The position numbers and the translations under genes were made by a program. From a virus, in IMG/VR virus record IMGVR_UViG_3300032093_006517, positions 1-30,983 of that record: a stretch of 30,983 nt of DNA, one strand, 5' to 3'. The notes beneath the pieces were generated by a model that did not search any database, had not been told where the DNA came from, and saw nothing but the letters and a program-made list of their open reading frames with translations. Below, one piece after another: positions 2,874 through 27,487 of the stretch (the stretch's first letter is position 1; each line of letters begins with the position of its first letter).

Positions 2874-3034
2874 AACCGCACGTGCCATACTTTTGGGTAT
2901 TTGTCAAACCATCAAACCTTATTACGAAAAGACATTACGAACCCCTAAAACTTTCCCCCTGCTGAACATTACGATCCAAACCTTTATATCCCCAAACCTT
3001 GTATCACAGATATCCAGGTTTGTCAAACAAGGTG

Positions 3035-3040
3035 TATAAT
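3035..3040 (+). promoter_or_regulatory. -10 box six bases before ATG 3047
   Basis: TATAAT at 3035-3040 followed by exactly six bases and ATG. No good -35 is seen at 17 bp. It matches the leaderless pattern of other genes here. Confidence 0.5.
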
Positions 3041-3046
3041 TTATAT

Positions 3047-3274
3047 ATGCCAAGACACTTTGCAAACCTTTATAGCCAGAAGTCTCATAGGCATGACTCT
3101 AAAAGAGAATATGATCAATTTACTGAAGACATGAATACTATAACAGGTATGTTGTATTCTATTGTTACCCTTAAGGTTTTCTTTCCTTCTAAATCCCCCG
3201 CCAAAAACGCCGATCAAGCGGGCAGCCCCGCACCTTATCCGATCCCGCTCGAAAATGCGGGGGATAAAGAGTAG
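3047..3274 (+). CDS. small basic hypothetical protein, uncertain
   Basis: 75 residues if the leaderless ATG at 3047 is used. The N-terminal half is basic (RHFANLYSQKSHRHDSKREYD). The last third is encoded by a GC-rich, highly base-paired segment (3193-3265) and reads as low-complexity Pro and Ala, so that part may be shaped by DNA or RNA structure rather than protein function. The gene lies inside the candidate origin region. It could be spurious, or a small origin-linked protein. Confidence 0.4.
   Translation: MPRHFANLYSQKSHRHDSKREYDQFTEDMNTITGMLYSIVTLKVFFPSKSPAKNADQAGSPAPYPIPLENAGDKE
3193..3265. other. GC-rich nested stem-loop element
   Basis: ATCCCCCGC (3193-3201) and GCGGGGGAT (3257-3265) form a perfect 9-bp outer stem. 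Inside, AGCGGG (3217-3222) can pair with CCCGCT (3244-3249), or alternatively GCGGG (3218-3222) with CCCGC (3227-3231) across a 4-base loop. CCGATC is repeated at 3210 and 3239. The GC content contrasts sharply with the AT-rich flanks. It may be a structured RNA or an extruding hairpin in an origin. Confidence 0.6.
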
Positions 3275-3419
3275 CAATCCTACCCCTTATAGAATAACAA
3301 ACCTTTTCTCCTGGTTTCCTATATATTTTATAAAGTTTTGTTAAAAAACATTACGATATTGGCAAATTTTCCCCTGGTTTTGGTAGATTTTTATGGGCAA
3401 TTTCATGCATATAAGACAC

Positions 3420-3448
3420 TTGACAAACCACTATTTTGCATGTATAAT
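3420..3448 (+). promoter_or_regulatory. strong consensus promoter without a downstream gene
   Basis: TTGACA (3420-3425), 17-bp spacer, TATAAT (3443-3448), an exact consensus match. Transcription from about 3455 runs toward the DnaA boxes. No open frame of useful length follows within 200 bases. The start region carries two copies of ATATCGGG. It may make an untranslated RNA such as a replication primer or regulator. Confidence 0.65.
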
Positions 3449-3576
3449 GCCCAAACCTTATATCGGGATATGATGGTTTGACAATATCGGGCATATGTGG
3501 TACAAAGGTTTGAAGGTTTGGGATATGAAGGTTTTTCGATTTGACATTACGAGCCATCTATGGTAAGCGCTCCCTA

Positions 3577-3606
3577 CTCCACTATTCTCCACTTCACTCC
3601 ACTTTA
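3577..3606 (+). repeat. three 10-bp-spaced CTCCACT repeats (iterons)
   Basis: CTCCACT occurs at 3577, 3587 and 3597, each followed by three variable bases, giving a period of exactly one helical turn. An AT-rich stretch follows at once, then two DnaA boxes. Confidence 0.65.
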
Positions 3607-3661
3607 ACCCTATCTAATAATATTATCAGTAACATTTTTCTGTGGATAAACCTGTGGATAA
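3577..3661. other. candidate replication origin with two DnaA boxes
   Basis: Three 10-bp iterons (3577-3606) are followed by an AT-rich stretch (about 3607-3640, with the palindrome ATAATATTAT at 3617-3626). Two perfect DnaA boxes TGTGGATAA follow, at 3641-3649 and 3653-3661. TTATCCACA on the other strand is the consensus bacterial DnaA site. This iterons, AT-patch and DnaA-box order is the usual layout of a replicator that uses host DnaA. No replication initiator gene is visible in the window. Confidence 0.6.
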
Positions 3662-3682
3662 CTATGATACAATGGTGGTATT

Positions 3683-3802
3683 ATGATTAGAATACTATGC
3701 TATAAGTGTGGGGTAATCTTCGAAAGAGATTACGATACCAAGTCTTTATGCCCCAACTGCGAAGATAAATTGTTTCAAGAGCAATCATCCTTTGAAGAAT
3801 AA
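3683..3802 (+). CDS. mini zinc-ribbon protein
   Basis: 39 residues with two CxxC knuckles: CYKC at residues 6-9 and CPNC at 23-26, separated by 13 residues, a classical small zinc ribbon. An acidic tail follows (QEQSSFEE). A possible -10 TACAAT lies at 3668-3673. It sits just after the DnaA boxes and could be a DNA- or RNA-polymerase-binding adaptor, but that is only inference from fold and position. Confidence 0.6.
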   Translation: MIRILCYKCGVIFERDYDTKSLCPNCEDKLFQEQSSFEE

Positions 3803-10302: not shown

Positions 10303-10381
10303 CAACATCAGATGGTTTTTTTATAAAATTTTTTTATTTTTTAAAAATAGAAAAAAGAAAAAGAAACAATTTATATACTAA
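10295..10381 (+). CDS. 28-residue hydrophobic-basic peptide
   Basis: It starts eight bases before the previous gene ends, with AAGGAG seven bases upstream, and its TAA shares a base with the ATG of the carbamoyltransferase (TAATG). It has an aromatic hydrophobic half (RWFFYKIFLFFK) and a poly-Lys half. It may be a membrane-binding peptide, or mainly a coupling device that brings ribosomes to the next start, which has no ribosome site of its own. Confidence 0.45.
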   Translation: MINNIRWFFYKIFLFFKNRKKKKKQFIY

Positions 10382-11802
10382 TGATTATTCTTGGTATCAA
10401 TGAAACATCACATGATGCATCTATATCTTTAATTAAAGATGGAGAAATTCTTTTTGCAGGACATGCTGAAAGATATAGCAAACAAAAAAATGACTGGTAT
10501 AACAACAGAGATATTTATTTAGATATGCTAAATTATGGCACACCAACACACATAGCGTACTATGAAAAACCACAACTTAAAAGGTCTAGAATATTTTTAA
10601 GAGGTGGAAGTGCAGACTGGAAACCGAATATACCAATGGATCTTCCTATAAAATATTTCAGCCATCACTATTCACACGCTGCTGCAGGATACTATACCAG
10701 CAAGTTTAACGATGCAGTCATAGTTGTTCTTGATGCTATAGGAGAGTACAACACTTCAACTATATGGGTAGGAGAAGGAGAAAAGATTAAACTAAAATAC
10801 AAACAAAACTATCCAGTAAGTTTTGGATTGTTTTATTCTGCATTTACACAATTAATAGGTTTAATGCCAAACCAAGAAGAATATATTATGATGGGCATGG
10901 CTGCGTATGGGGATTGGACAAAGTATTATAGAAAAGTAGATGAATATTTTCCATCATATCATAAACAAAAGTATAATTTTCATAAAGGAATTCATGACTG
11001 GGGGCATGTTGAATCAGAACAAGATAAATTTGATATAGCAGCAGCAGTTCAAATGGTATATCAGCAAAGATTAAACGAGTTTATGCACATGGCTTATTCC
11101 ATAACTGGTAAAACAAACCTTGTGTTTATGGGTGGTTGTGCTCTTAACTCTTCTGCTAACACCTTGCTTTGGAATATATTTAAAGATGTTTGGATTATGC
11201 CTAATCCTGGTGATGCTGGTTCTTCTTTAGGTGCCGCCGCTGCTTTGTACGGTAAGCACATAAACTGGAAAACACCATATCTTGGCTACGATCTTGGTGG
11301 AGATTATCCTGTTCAGAAAATTATCGACGGCATATTAAAAGATGGAATCGTAGCAGTAGCAACAGGTAGAGCAGAATATGGTCCAAGAGCACTTGGCAAT
11401 AGATCTATTCTTGCTGACCCAAGAGATCCAAACATTAAAGACAAAGTTAATTTAATTAAGCAAAGAGAATTGTTTAGACCATTTGCTCCAGTAGTTTTGG
11501 AAGAGTGTGCGTCTAAGTGGTTTGATATGGACTTTAAAAGCCCTTATATGCAGTATACAGTTAAATGTCTTCAGCCAGACAAAATACCCTCTGTTGTTCA
11601 CGCTGACGGCACATCTAGAGTTCAAACAGTCAATAGGGAACAGCATCGTGGTTTATACAGGGTTTTAAATAAATTTTATCTTGAAACTGGTGTGCCAATC
11701 CTATTAAATACTAGCCTAAATATAAAGGGCCAGCCACTCCTAAATGATGAGAATGACATTTTAAAGTGGGAAAAACAATATAACTTTACAATCTGCAGGT
11801 GA
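10381..11802 (+). CDS. NodU/CmcH/TobZ-type O-carbamoyltransferase
   Basis: 473 residues. The N-terminal Kae1-like domain has MIILGINETSHDASIS, the metal motif HHYSHAAAGY (~100-109), VVLDAIGEY and PGDAGSSLG. The C-terminal YrdC-like domain has EYGPRALGNRSILADPRD and FRPFAPVV. These are the conserved elements of O-carbamoyltransferases, which transfer carbamoyl from carbamoyl phosphate via carbamoyl-AMP to sugars or antibiotics (TobZ on tobramycin, NodU on Nod factors). It ends a little after the LLNTSLNIKGQP block, so it is slightly shorter at the C-terminus than typical members. It is coupled to the small peptide gene upstream. Confidence 0.88.
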   Translation: MIILGINETSHDASISLIKDGEILFAGHAERYSKQKNDWYNNRDIYLDMLNYGTPTHIAYYEKPQLKRSRIFLRGGSADWKPNIPMDLPIKYFSHHYSHAAAGYYTSKFNDAVIVVLDAIGEYNTSTIWVGEGEKIKLKYKQNYPVSFGLFYSAFTQLIGLMPNQEEYIMMGMAAYGDWTKYYRKVDEYFPSYHKQKYNFHKGIHDWGHVESEQDKFDIAAAVQMVYQQRLNEFMHMAYSITGKTNLVFMGGCALNSSANTLLWNIFKDVWIMPNPGDAGSSLGAAAALYGKHINWKTPYLGYDLGGDYPVQKIIDGILKDGIVAVATGRAEYGPRALGNRSILADPRDPNIKDKVNLIKQRELFRPFAPVVLEECASKWFDMDFKSPYMQYTVKCLQPDKIPSVVHADGTSRVQTVNREQHRGLYRVLNKFYLETGVPILLNTSLNIKGQPLLNDENDILKWEKQYNFTICR

Positions 11803-11906: not shown

Positions 11907-13946
11907 ATGAGTGAAGTAAAGTGTCCATACACTGGTAAAACATATACAACCGAAGCAACAACAAACAAGGACTGGTGGCCAAATCAACTAGACTTGTCCC
12001 CGTTAAGAAAGCATTCAGAAAAGTCTGACCCAATGCCAGATGGTTTTAACTATGCTGAAGAGTTTAACAATTTAGATCTTGATGCAGTAAAGAAGGATAT
12101 TGATACACTTCTAACTACCTCGCAAGATTGGTGGCCTGCTGATTATGGCAACTATGGTCCATTCTTTATCCGTATGGCATGGCACAGCGCAGGGACATAC
12201 AGAACAACTGATGGTCGTGGTGGGGCTGGAGAAGGACTACATCGTTTTGCTCCACAGAACTCATGGCCTGACAATGGAAACCTTGACAAGGCTCGTAGAC
12301 TTCTTTGGCCAATTAAACAAAAGTATGGTAGAAAGATTTCATGGGCTGACCTAATGATTCTTGCTGGTAATGTTGCTCTTGAAAATATGGGCTTCAAGAC
12401 TTTCGGTTTTGGTGGAGGTCGTGAAGATGTTTGGGAAGCAGATGACACATACTGGGGCAGCGAAAAAGAATGGCTTGCAGACAACCGTTATAGCGGTGAT
12501 CGTGAGTTAGAGAATCCTCTTGCTGCTGTACAAATGGGATTGATTTATGTAAATCCTGAAGGTCCAAATGGCAATCCAGATCCACTTCTTTCAGCAAAAG
12601 ATATTCGTGAGACATTTGCAAGAATGGCCATGAATGATGAAGAAACCGTTGCCCTTATTGCAGGCGGTCACGCTTTTGGTAAAGCACATGGCGCAGGAGA
12701 TCCTTCGCATGTTGGTCCTAATCCAGAGGCTGCCCCTATTGAAGATATGGGACTTGGCTGGAAGAATTCATTTGGCAAGGGTAATGCAGAAGATACCATC
12801 ACAAGTGGTATTGAAGGTGCATGGACTCCTACGCCAACCAAGTGGGACAACTCTTACTTAAAGATTTTGTTTAAGTATGATTGGAAGCAGGTAAAGTCAC
12901 CTGCTGGTGCAACACAATGGATTCCTACAGACGAGTCTGCTGCTAATTTAGTTCCAGATGCACATATCGAAGGTAAGTTCCATGCTCCAGTAATGACAAC
13001 AGCAGATTTGGCTCTCAAGTTTGATCCAGAGTATGAAAAGATTTCACGCAAATTCCTTGAAGATTTTGATTATTTCTCAAATGCATTTGCTCGTGCCTGG
13101 TTTAAGTTGACACACAGAGATATGGGTCCTATATCTAGATATCTTGGTAAGGAAGTTCCTTCTCAACAACTTATATGGCAAGATCCAGTTCCACAATATG
13201 AACATGTAGATTTAGATGTTAATGATGTGAAGAATAGAATTAAGTCTTCTGATATTCCTGCATATCATTTTGTTTATACTGCATGGGCTTCTGCATCCAC
13301 ATTTCGCAAGACAGACAAGCGTGGTGGTGCAAATGGTGCTCGCATTAGGCTGCAGCCACAAAATAATTGGAAGATTAACAATCATAAAATTATTTCAGAT
13401 GTATTGTCATACCTAGAGTCTCTACAGAGAGAATATAAACTATCGATTGCCGACTTGATTGTATTGGCTGGATGTTCTGCGATTGAAAAGGCTTCTGGAG
13501 AAAGTGTTAAGGTTCCATTTACTATTGGAAGAACTGATGCTACTCAAGAGCAAACAGACATAGAGTCGTTTGCAGTTTTAGAGCCAATGTTTGATGCATT
13601 CCGCAACTATGTTGATTCATCAATAGTCGTTCAAGAAGAAGTCTTGCTTGTAGAAAAGTCCAACCTGCTTGGACTAACACCAGTTGAGATGGTCCTTCTT
13701 CTTTCTGGAATGAGAAGTTTGGAAAATAATAGCCTAGACAATACATATCTAGCCAACCTTCTTTCATATACCAATGCAGATCAGGCAGTAGGTGTTCCTC
13801 GTGTAGACCTTATTCTTGCCTCTAACTCAGAACTTAGAGCAATTTCAGAAGTGTATGCCTCTGATGATGCTAAAGAAAAATTTATCAATGATTTTGCTTT
13901 GGCATGGAATAAAGTTATGATGCTTGATAGGTTTGATGTAAAATAA
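11907..13946 (+). CDS. katG: catalase-peroxidase KatG
   Basis: 679 residues. All key residues are seen, each exactly 15 lower than in the M. tuberculosis enzyme: distal R89, W92 and H93 (RMAWH), D122, the adduct residues W92, Y214 (IYVNPEG) and M240 (RMAMND), and the haem-ligand H255 ([11 protein letters not shown]). KatG breaks down hydrogen peroxide and also acts as a peroxidase in the cytoplasm. The protein is about 50 residues shorter than most (720-740), with a trimmed but present C-terminal domain. It follows a structured leader and precedes tRNA-Thr. A full-length katG is very unusual in a phage; it may shield the host, or the replicating phage, from peroxide. Confidence 0.96.
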
Positions 13947-22269: not shown

Positions 22270-22554
22270 TTATACCCAATACTTAATTATAGCACTTGTA
22301 GCAAGGATTGTCCATAGGATGTTAAACCATATGATAGTGGGCAGGGTTTTTACTGTTGAAGACCAGATCAGTGCAAGACTTGATGCTAATGCAAAAATAT
22401 AAAGCCACCACCACTGCCTGCCAAATAAAAGGCCTGGAAATATAATACATATTTTTGTCATAAATGCAAAAAATTCAACGGTATTGGGCTTGTTCCAGTA
22501 TTCTTTATGGAACATTGTCTTTAGTGCATTTATCCATTCTGTTCTAAATTTCAC
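22270..22554 (-). CDS. small multi-pass membrane protein
   Basis: 94 residues from a GTG that overlaps the halogenase stop (GTGA); the ribosome site GGAGGGG is inside the halogenase gene. Three or four hydrophobic helices with WWWLY and aromatic clusters (residues ~28-92). Its position right after the halogenase suggests transport or membrane placement linked to that enzyme, but this is inference. Confidence 0.65.
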   Translation of the reverse strand: MKFRTEWINALKTMFHKEYWNKPNTVEFFAFMTKICIIFPGLLFGRQWWWLYIFALASSLALIWSSTVKTLPTIIWFNILWTILATSAIIKYWV

Positions 22555-24095
22555 TTTAGCCCCTCCAAAAATTCTCTATGGTCAACACATTCAGACACCT
22601 TATAGTCTTGATATTTCTTATAATAGTCAAACATTTCTATACCTTTTTTATAATCTGCAGAATTTTCTAAATAAACATTGGCCATGCCCTTGTTGATTGT
22701 CTCATGTGCAGACCCAACGAATGTCCAACTATTTGATGACCAGTGCTCTCCAGAGTCAAACTTATTCGGAAGTCTATGCTTCCATACATCAATTTTTTGT
22801 TTTAGGCTTTTTGGAGCATTTTCATATGAAAACTTTTTCCAAAACTCAGTATCTTTTCTTAAAGTCATGTAATGAAAATATATAAACTCAGAAATATTGT
22901 TGTTCATATTAACTATGTTATTGTTAAACTCTTCTCTTATTTCTTTAGAGTTTGCAAAGATCCACAATGGGTTATCAAATATCTGAGTTAACTCTACAAT
23001 GCTTACCCAAATTGATGTTGCCTCTAGTGGCTCAACAAAGTTTGCTGCCAAACCAACCGCTACGCAATTATTTATCCATGGCTCTTCATAACATCCAGCA
23101 TTAAATTTGAAACCACCCTTATCTTTTCTAGGATATGTTGGCTCATACCCCAAAAACTCTTCTATTTCCTGCACCGCTTCTTGCTCAGATATTAAAGACG
23201 AGTCATATACATATCCGCATCCAAAGCGTGTCTGCAATGGTATTTTCCACATCCATCCATACTTCATAGCAATTGCTTCAGTGTAAGATGGAATTTTGTC
23301 AGTCATTTCAATAAAAAATGGAACAGCAGAATCGACTGGCAAAAATTCTTTATAACTCTTCCACTTGGCATCATATACTTTTCCAATTATTAATCTATGG
23401 AAACCACTACAATCAAAAACAAAATCACACTGCACTGTATTGTTATCGCTTAACATTAATCCGTTTATATAATTGTTTTCGTCTAGTGAAACATTTTTTA
23501 TTGTTCCGTCTATTAAATTAATGCCCCTTTCTAGACCTATCTCTTTTAATCTATTTGCTAATTTTGTAGCATTAAAATGTATAGATATATTTCCTACTTT
23601 TTTATAATTAAGTATAGGATCTTTGTCAGGAACAAACCCCAAACTTTTTTTATTACTGTCTAAAATGAATGGAACTTTCTTTGCTTCTGAAACTTTTTCG
23701 GTAAAGTCAATCTGCTTTACACTATTATTTAATGCAATGCTTGCTAAAATTAACGGAGTATTAGAAATATATTTATCAAATACAGCATCAAAACCAAGAG
23801 ATTTGTCTGTTGTAGAAAAGCCGTGATAATAAAATTCTCCATCATTATTCCAATTTGTAAACTTGATTCCATTCTTAATTGTTGCATCACAATTTTTTAT
23901 TAAATCTGATAGAGGAATACCTAAATGATCAAAAAAATCTGGCAGGTAGGGGGTAGACCCTTCCCCTGCTCCTAGAATTCCTATGTCAGTTGATTCTATA
24001 ACAGTTACATCTAATTCTGGGTATGATCTTTTAGCCTTAAGAGCAGTCAGCCACCCTGCAGTACCGCCACCAACAACGACCACCTTTTTGGTCAT
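22551..24095 (-). CDS. flavin-dependent halogenase (tryptophan-halogenase family)
   Basis: 514 residues. FAD site G9-G-G-T-A-G-W15, GEGSTP (44-49), the candidate catalytic lysine K74 in TIKNGIKFTNW, the WxWxIP motif at 280-286 (GWMWKIP), and E355 in NFVEPLEATS, the residue next to the chloride and lysine in PrnA. The enzyme would use reduced FAD, oxygen and halide to halogenate an aromatic substrate through a lysine chloramine. The reductase is not in the window, so host flavin reductase must serve. Viral members are known: a cyanophage halogenase iodinates diverse substrates. Start at 24095 overlaps the upstream gene as ATGA. Confidence 0.93.
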   Translation of the reverse strand: MTKKVVVVGGGTAGWLTALKAKRSYPELDVTVIESTDIGILGAGEGSTPYLPDFFDHLGIPLSDLIKNCDATIKNGIKFTNWNNDGEFYYHGFSTTDKSLGFDAVFDKYISNTPLILASIALNNSVKQIDFTEKVSEAKKVPFILDSNKKSLGFVPDKDPILNYKKVGNISIHFNATKLANRLKEIGLERGINLIDGTIKNVSLDENNYINGLMLSDNNTVQCDFVFDCSGFHRLIIGKVYDAKWKSYKEFLPVDSAVPFFIEMTDKIPSYTEAIAMKYGWMWKIPLQTRFGCGYVYDSSLISEQEAVQEIEEFLGYEPTYPRKDKGGFKFNAGCYEEPWINNCVAVGLAANFVEPLEATSIWVSIVELTQIFDNPLWIFANSKEIREEFNNNIVNMNNNISEFIYFHYMTLRKDTEFWKKFSYENAPKSLKQKIDVWKHRLPNKFDSGEHWSSNSWTFVGSAHETINKGMANVYLENSADYKKGIEMFDYYKKYQDYKVSECVDHREFLEGLK

Positions 24096-24298
24096 GGCTT
24101 TCTCCCCCATTGTATATAGTTCCAACCACGCTCATGGGCGTAGTAAATAAATACTTTAACTACCGTTTCCCAAAAAGCGATTGCTCCTGATATTGTAGCA
24201 TTTTTTGTAATCACATAGGCGACAACAAATGAAGAAAGAGTTCCCCATATGCGATAACTTAGTGCCTTGACAAACGATCTGGTCCTAGTTACTTTCAC
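24092..24298 (-). CDS. DUF2061 membrane protein, copy 1
   Basis: About 68 residues. The pattern RSFVKALSYRIWGTLSSFVVAY, then ETVVKVFIYYAHERGW and a final GR, is the DUF2061 signature (two membrane helices joined by an HER motif). A GTG at 24298 is preferred because GGAG lies eight bases upstream; the GTG at 24307 is the alternative. A second copy is at 27597-27815. The role is unknown. Confidence 0.75.
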   Translation of the reverse strand: MKVTRTRSFVKALSYRIWGTLSSFVVAYVITKNATISGAIAFWETVVKVFIYYAHERGWNYIQWGRKP

Positions 24299-27301: not shown

Positions 27302-27487
27302 TTATACCTTCCTATTGTCGGTTTTATAGAATCCAGAGCCATGAAATGTGACTCCTATATTAGAGTATACACGAACCAGGGTATTATTGCAAGTTTCACA
27401 TTTATACCCTGGATCTGCGTCAGACATAGATCTAGTCTTTGTATATCTTATTGCACAAGACACACAGTCATATTCATATGATGGCAT
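27302..27487 (-). CDS. FmdB-like zinc-ribbon protein
   Basis: 61 residues from MPSYEYDC. CVSC and CETC knuckles near residues 8-11 and 30-33, then VTFHGSGFYKTDNR at the end, as in the FmdB putative regulatory family. Start overlaps the small gene before it (TAATG), which decides this ATG over the upstream one at 27520. It may bind nucleic acid or RNA polymerase; the function of the family is not settled. Confidence 0.8.
   Translation of the reverse strand: MPSYEYDCVSCAIRYTKTRSMSDADPGYKCETCNNTLVRVYSNIGVTFHGSGFYKTDNRKV

Follow-up and report, generated by a model that had tools for sequence, protein, structure and literature searches.

Organization of the element

The window, by which we mean the whole stretch of 30,983 bases that was analyzed, is an entire virus record, classed as linear, and is probably a fragment of a larger phage. 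It is a 31 kb piece of a phage from an uncultured family whose genomes measure about 95–119 kb; near relatives of the window phage were absent from the phage collection searched. The window encodes WhiB, a KatG-type peroxidase, a carbamoyltransferase, a tryptophan halogenase, and Hsp20. WhiB is held to mark actinophages (PMC10202952) and is present in 9 of 10 related large records; these WhiB genes indicate actinobacteria as hosts, which are probably freshwater bacteria. The large relatives (up to 115–119 kb) carry a polymerase, a DnaB-like helicase, a RecA/UvsX-like recombinase, and a terminase, and neither a DnaA C-terminal domain nor a phage-encoded DnaA was found in 15 records.

The element lies within 2874–3682, a region devoid of clear genes other than a possible small ORF within 2999–3274; a 39-aa zinc-ribbon-like ORF (3683–3802) follows. 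The preliminary description, which had spoken of the only long gene-free stretch, was therefore roughly right apart from the small ORF. Its account of the repeats is exact to the base: CTCCACT starts at 3577, 3587, and 3597, an exact 10-bp period, and is followed by an AT stretch and two perfect boxes three bases apart. ATAATATTAT occupies 3617–3626, and TGTGGATAA occurs at 3641–3649 and 3653–3661, the two copies lying 12 bp apart and reading TTATCCACA on the minus strand. By nearest-neighbor stability, the 35 bp starting at 3603 rank in the lowest ~2% of the window. New relative to that description are a perfect promoter at 3420–3448, the ATTACGA and GGTTTG/CAAACC repeats, and the recognition that the record, though complete in the window, comes from a larger phage (Table 1).

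Table 1. Features in and around the 3420–3661 element
Feature	Position	Strand	Evidence
Promoter P1, perfect sigma-70 consensus TTGACA-N17-TATAAT, reads into the element	3420–3448	+	Sequence; 45/56 distinct modules
Second promoter-like site (P2), TTGACA-N17-TACAAA	3478–3506	+	Sequence; alignment consensus TTGACA-N17-TATAAN
GGTTTG cluster, G-rich on the P1 non-template strand; possible operator or R-loop-promoting sequence	3475–3536	+	Counts in 46 loci
ATTACGA motif	3546–3552	+	Invariant in 51 aligned modules
GCGCTCCCTA element immediately 5' of the iterons	3567–3576	+	Alignment
Three 10-bp iterons, CTCCACTATT/CTCCACTTCA/CTCCACTTTA	3577–3606	+	Sequence, shuffles, copy number in large records
AT-rich, thermodynamically weak patch, candidate unwinding element	3603–3640		Nearest-neighbor stability
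CAGTAACA core motif, kept also in relatives without DnaA boxes	3627–3634	+	Alignment; partly a selection criterion of the wider set
DnaA box 1 (predicted), TTATCCACA on the minus strand	3641–3649	-	Sequence; 46/46 perfect where present
DnaA box 2 (predicted), TTATCCACA on the minus strand	3653–3661	-	Sequence; 42 perfect, 3 variants
Flanking CAAACC and ATTACGA repeats around the possible small ORF; probable regulatory sites	2905–3459	+	Sequence

The CAAACC/GGTTTG repeats (2905–3533) flip orientation near 3465, between the P1 -10 element and P2. They are clustered in relatives too and are possibly operators of a phage regulator.

Comparison with shuffled sequence

The individual words of the element are not all unusual in the window. 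CTCCACT alone is not enriched (4 observed versus 2.7 expected), nor are relaxed boxes of the form TTWTNCACA (9 versus 5.6 window-wide). TGTGGATAA occurs three times compared to 0.45 in shuffles, and the tandem box and the triple iteron are each found once in the window and never in 60 shuffles. Together with the conservation described below, these shuffles rule out a chance origin of the arrangement. The 23-bp box pair matched 40 scattered bacterial loci in a genome-wide scan. We also considered tandem boxes alone as a marker and discarded them as too common, the CAGTAA core accompanying only 14 of 125 viral tandem pairs.

Conservation among relatives

We searched with the upstream 119-aa protein alone. 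This returned 34 loci, one of which (L124) appears to stop before the site, leaving 33 to be counted. The iteron/AT/CAGTAA core is kept in all 33 loci that reach the site, some with one degenerate iteron, and perfect DnaA boxes are found in 25 of them. Scanning for the triple CTCCAC repeat produced a wider set of at least 120 viral stretches, many of them related contigs whose counts are not independent events. These fall into two main groups, class A, which is window-like, and class B. Since the iteron pattern was the search key for most of this wider set and CAGTAA the criterion for class A, conservation of both is there partly by construction.

We analyzed 56 distinct modules of class A. 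Of these, 46 carry a perfect box 1, which in 41 cases follows the iterons at a distance of 38 nt. A perfect box 2 is found in 42, and 3 variants of it deviate only at the N that TTATNCACA permits; 28 of the 56 have a perfect box 3. P1 matches the consensus perfectly in 45, its spacer being 17 nt in every case and its position mostly 135–160 nt upstream of the iterons, and ATTACGA is invariant in the 51-sequence alignment. Across 46 loci, the last 100 nt before the iterons contain 127 copies of GGTTTG with a mean GC skew of +0.30, and neither TGTGGATAA nor TTATCCACA occurs in the 1200 nt upstream of the iterons.

The core is present without boxes in several relatives, among them L142, L144, L146, L152, L182, L210, and L288; in box-less relatives, a TATAAT-like sequence and a gene start come directly after it. 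DnaA boxes are thus a common, not universal, part of the element. These box-less relatives imply that the core consists of the iterons, the AT patch, and CAGTAA, with the DnaA boxes as a frequent helper.

Class B loci (L182–L293) share the triple CTCCAC repeat, behind which lie a hairpin and a stretch rich in GGAG/GGGGG, mostly without boxes. A mirror arrangement of boxes in this class (L258 and L280) involves too few cases to rely on. Because both classes have a DUF932 gene at a few kb upstream of the element, and their polymerases are 52–55% identical, the element occupies a corresponding place in old relatives. The DUF932 protein was considered as an initiator and set aside, no structure match being informative. 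A known isolate with the same element was sought as well; the phage collection contained no whole-element match.

Copy number and placement in the genome

Exactly one exact triple repeat is present in 10 of the 12 large records checked; in the remaining two, the triple repeat of G003 carries a single mismatch and that of G002 is degenerate. TGTGGATAA is above expectation at 7–10 per genome (about 1.1 expected), and in most records tandem boxes are confined to a zone of ~6 kb, which speaks for an origin. The same zone holds a divergent box pair ~5 kb upstream and, in some relatives, a second pair ~600 bp downstream, so boxes are not unique to the module, which counts against an origin there. 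Boxes are nevertheless not equally frequent elsewhere; neither their frequency nor their conservation in relatives, two of the three checks attached to the preliminary description, refuted a replicator.

These genomes have high-affinity boxes in tandem both in the module and between genes elsewhere; combined with the absence of a phage dnaA (15 records), this could suggest a datA-like sink or decoy that titrates host DnaA to halt host replication. We consider this very unlikely: perfect boxes number only 7–10 per genome, fixed placement by iterons and an AT patch would be needless, and boxes are missing here in some lineages.

Content downstream of the element changes right after the boxes. 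In an alignment of the window with L129, two blocks overlap exactly at the 23-bp double box (3640–3662), a pattern that suggests loss or gain of a segment of about 600 bp, containing one gene, between two box-pair copies. Both observations would suit a hotspot of recombination or cassette exchange; together with a packaging site, we hold this to be the most improbable of the readings weighed here, as it leaves the promoter, the phased iterons, and the N-position pattern of box variation unexplained. Packaging in particular was rejected, the gene for the terminase large subunit being ~28 kb from the module in G001.

Tests for an origin or a transcription-control region

The box-less relatives, the lack of skew support, and the failure to find an initiator among the ORFs tested also speak against an origin. 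A change of GC skew had been proposed as a check, and no global extremum coincides with the module in three relatives of ~100–117 kb. GC3 skew is incoherent; for plus-strand genes it is higher just right of the module than just left in 3/3 genomes, and for minus-strand genes it is the opposite of what a bidirectional origin at the module predicts. GC skew is therefore not supportive as proof of an origin. A search for a Rep or initiator gene, the former likewise proposed, returned no match among the ten ORFs near the site in the window nor among the tested neighbors in G001; a divergent initiator is possible. With no adjoining rep gene found and with relatives that encode their own polymerase, helicase, and recombinase, the label "plasmid-like" given to the element earlier is not supported.

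A structured RNA or known riboregulator was rejected: the module alignment has no conserved pairs, and an Rfam search reported only tRNAs. A promoter dedicated to one specific neighbor gene was rejected too, since the genes behind the module vary in kind and strand among relatives.

A transcription-control region would agree with the promoter and the repeated operator-like motifs as well. On this account, strong tandem promoters and operator repeats (GGTTTG/CAAACC, ATTACGA, and CTCCAC) would govern early transcription, and the boxes would let host DnaA tune or block it, with no origin involved. The prevalence of the perfect promoter among class A modules, the overlap of repeats with promoter elements, the CAAACC and ATTACGA sites throughout the intergenic region, and the TATAAT-like sequence and gene start after the core of box-less relatives all agree with it. 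We nonetheless regard it as rather unlikely, given that the following genes differ and are often on the opposite strand, that regulatory operators usually recur whereas the exact triple iteron is single in 10/12 records, and that the boxes lie well downstream of P1 at a distance fixed to the iterons, not to the promoter.

Comparison with known origins

The E. coli oriC core, with its R1 box by the unwinding element, resembles the module in having perfect boxes beside an AT-rich patch, the patch lying 5' of TGTGGATAA. The module thus combines the cluster of high-affinity DnaA boxes and the adjoining AT-rich unwinding patch expected of oriC-type origins, the latter in the E. coli orientation. 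Unlike a bacterial oriC, it has only 2–3 boxes, opposing phased CTCCAC iterons, and a strong upstream promoter, and it sits without a dnaA gene on a phage with its own replisome.

In plasmid and prophage iteron origins (P1 oriR, F, pSC101, and RK2), iterons of about 17–22 bp, an AT-rich patch, and DnaA boxes lie side by side. The module has the same three parts adjoining one another, with phased direct repeats beside the AT-rich patch; the three CTCCAC repeats at 10 bp are kept across classes A and B. It differs in its 10-bp iterons, in the large phage genome, and in the absence of a cognate Rep gene adjoining the iterons among the ORFs tested; because no adjacent initiator gene was found, we do not file it as a plasmid-type origin. 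By analogy, the best reading is that it would work like an iteron origin with DnaA help.

Lambda ori is a transcribed origin with iterons beside an AT-rich patch, the iterons lying inside gene O, and it is not known to have fixed DnaA boxes at ori. The module shares the iterons by an AT-rich patch and, as predicted, the transcription, whereas no O-like gene was seen there. T5-family phages (Demerecviridae; 108–112 kb) likewise have perfect DnaA boxes in long gene-free gaps. Their boxes are 73 bp apart, without CTCCAC iterons or the CAGTAA core, and their hosts are enterobacterial; BLAST similarity to the module extends over only ~30 bp at the boxes, with no shared sequence beyond them.

The basal unwinding system calls for three or more NAN trios no farther than 16 bp from a DnaA box (PMC8287927). 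The module similarly has tandem boxes by an AT tract and, in the window, a trio-like run (TAA-TAT-TAT-TAG, on the minus strand, 15 nt past the box). Such trios, present in the window by inspection, are easily matched by chance in AT-rich DNA and are not clearly kept in the relatives' consensus, and no GC-rich spacer was seen. Among phages, a predicted origin with DnaA boxes has been reported for Pseudomonas phage PseuGes_254 (PMC11512268), and in ICP1, mapping a phage origin by depth is an established approach (PMC7145576).

A candidate transcribed origin

Judged from its sequence features, the 240-base element at 3420–3661 is probably an origin of replication in a family of ~95–119 kb actinobacterial phages, either by itself or joined to an early operator/promoter. 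An origin fits best because boxes stand beside the AT patch in the oriC orientation, with iterons opposite and strong predicted transcription toward the patch. Of the earlier proposal, the central idea of a replicator remains the best reading and is much better supported than before, by a conserved module with a single exact triple repeat in 10 of 12 large records and by boxes that are fixed in position and rare elsewhere; GC skew lends it no support.

We envisage that transcription by host RNA polymerase begins at P1, perhaps also at P2, and runs through the G-rich stretch in the direction of the iterons, with an R-loop or a loosened duplex as a possible result. A protein, probably phage-encoded, would bind the three 10-bp-phased CTCCAC iterons on one helix face. 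In most lineages, host DnaA would bind the two or three fixed boxes across the AT-rich patch. The patch between iterons and boxes would then open, and the phage DnaB-like helicase and replicase could be loaded.

More speculatively, and as a possibility that we put forward with reservation, a widespread uncultured actinophage family may initiate at such a three-part origin (promoter and G-rich leader, phage iterons, and host DnaA boxes). A lytic phage of >100 kb with its own helicase and polymerase would thereby couple its first initiation to host DnaA, and in sister lineages the DnaA part would have been lost or rearranged. Sequence almost never reveals where a large uncultured phage has its origin. 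By setting dozens of relatives side by side, we arrive at a compact candidate whose natural variants either carry or lack DnaA boxes, so that the dependence of such phages on host DnaA can be tested directly, and the triple repeat offers a marker for the corresponding site in related phages.

Two further observations concern other parts of these genomes. In G001 (L165), other DnaA-box sites near 27446, 28962, and 34608 lie beside TGTGA-N6-TCACA palindromes or near-palindromes, which are Crp/GlxR-like. The window itself carries a set of auxiliary genes unusual for a phage, namely a carbamoyltransferase (10381–11802), a catalase-peroxidase-type gene (11907–13946), and a tryptophan halogenase (22551–24125).
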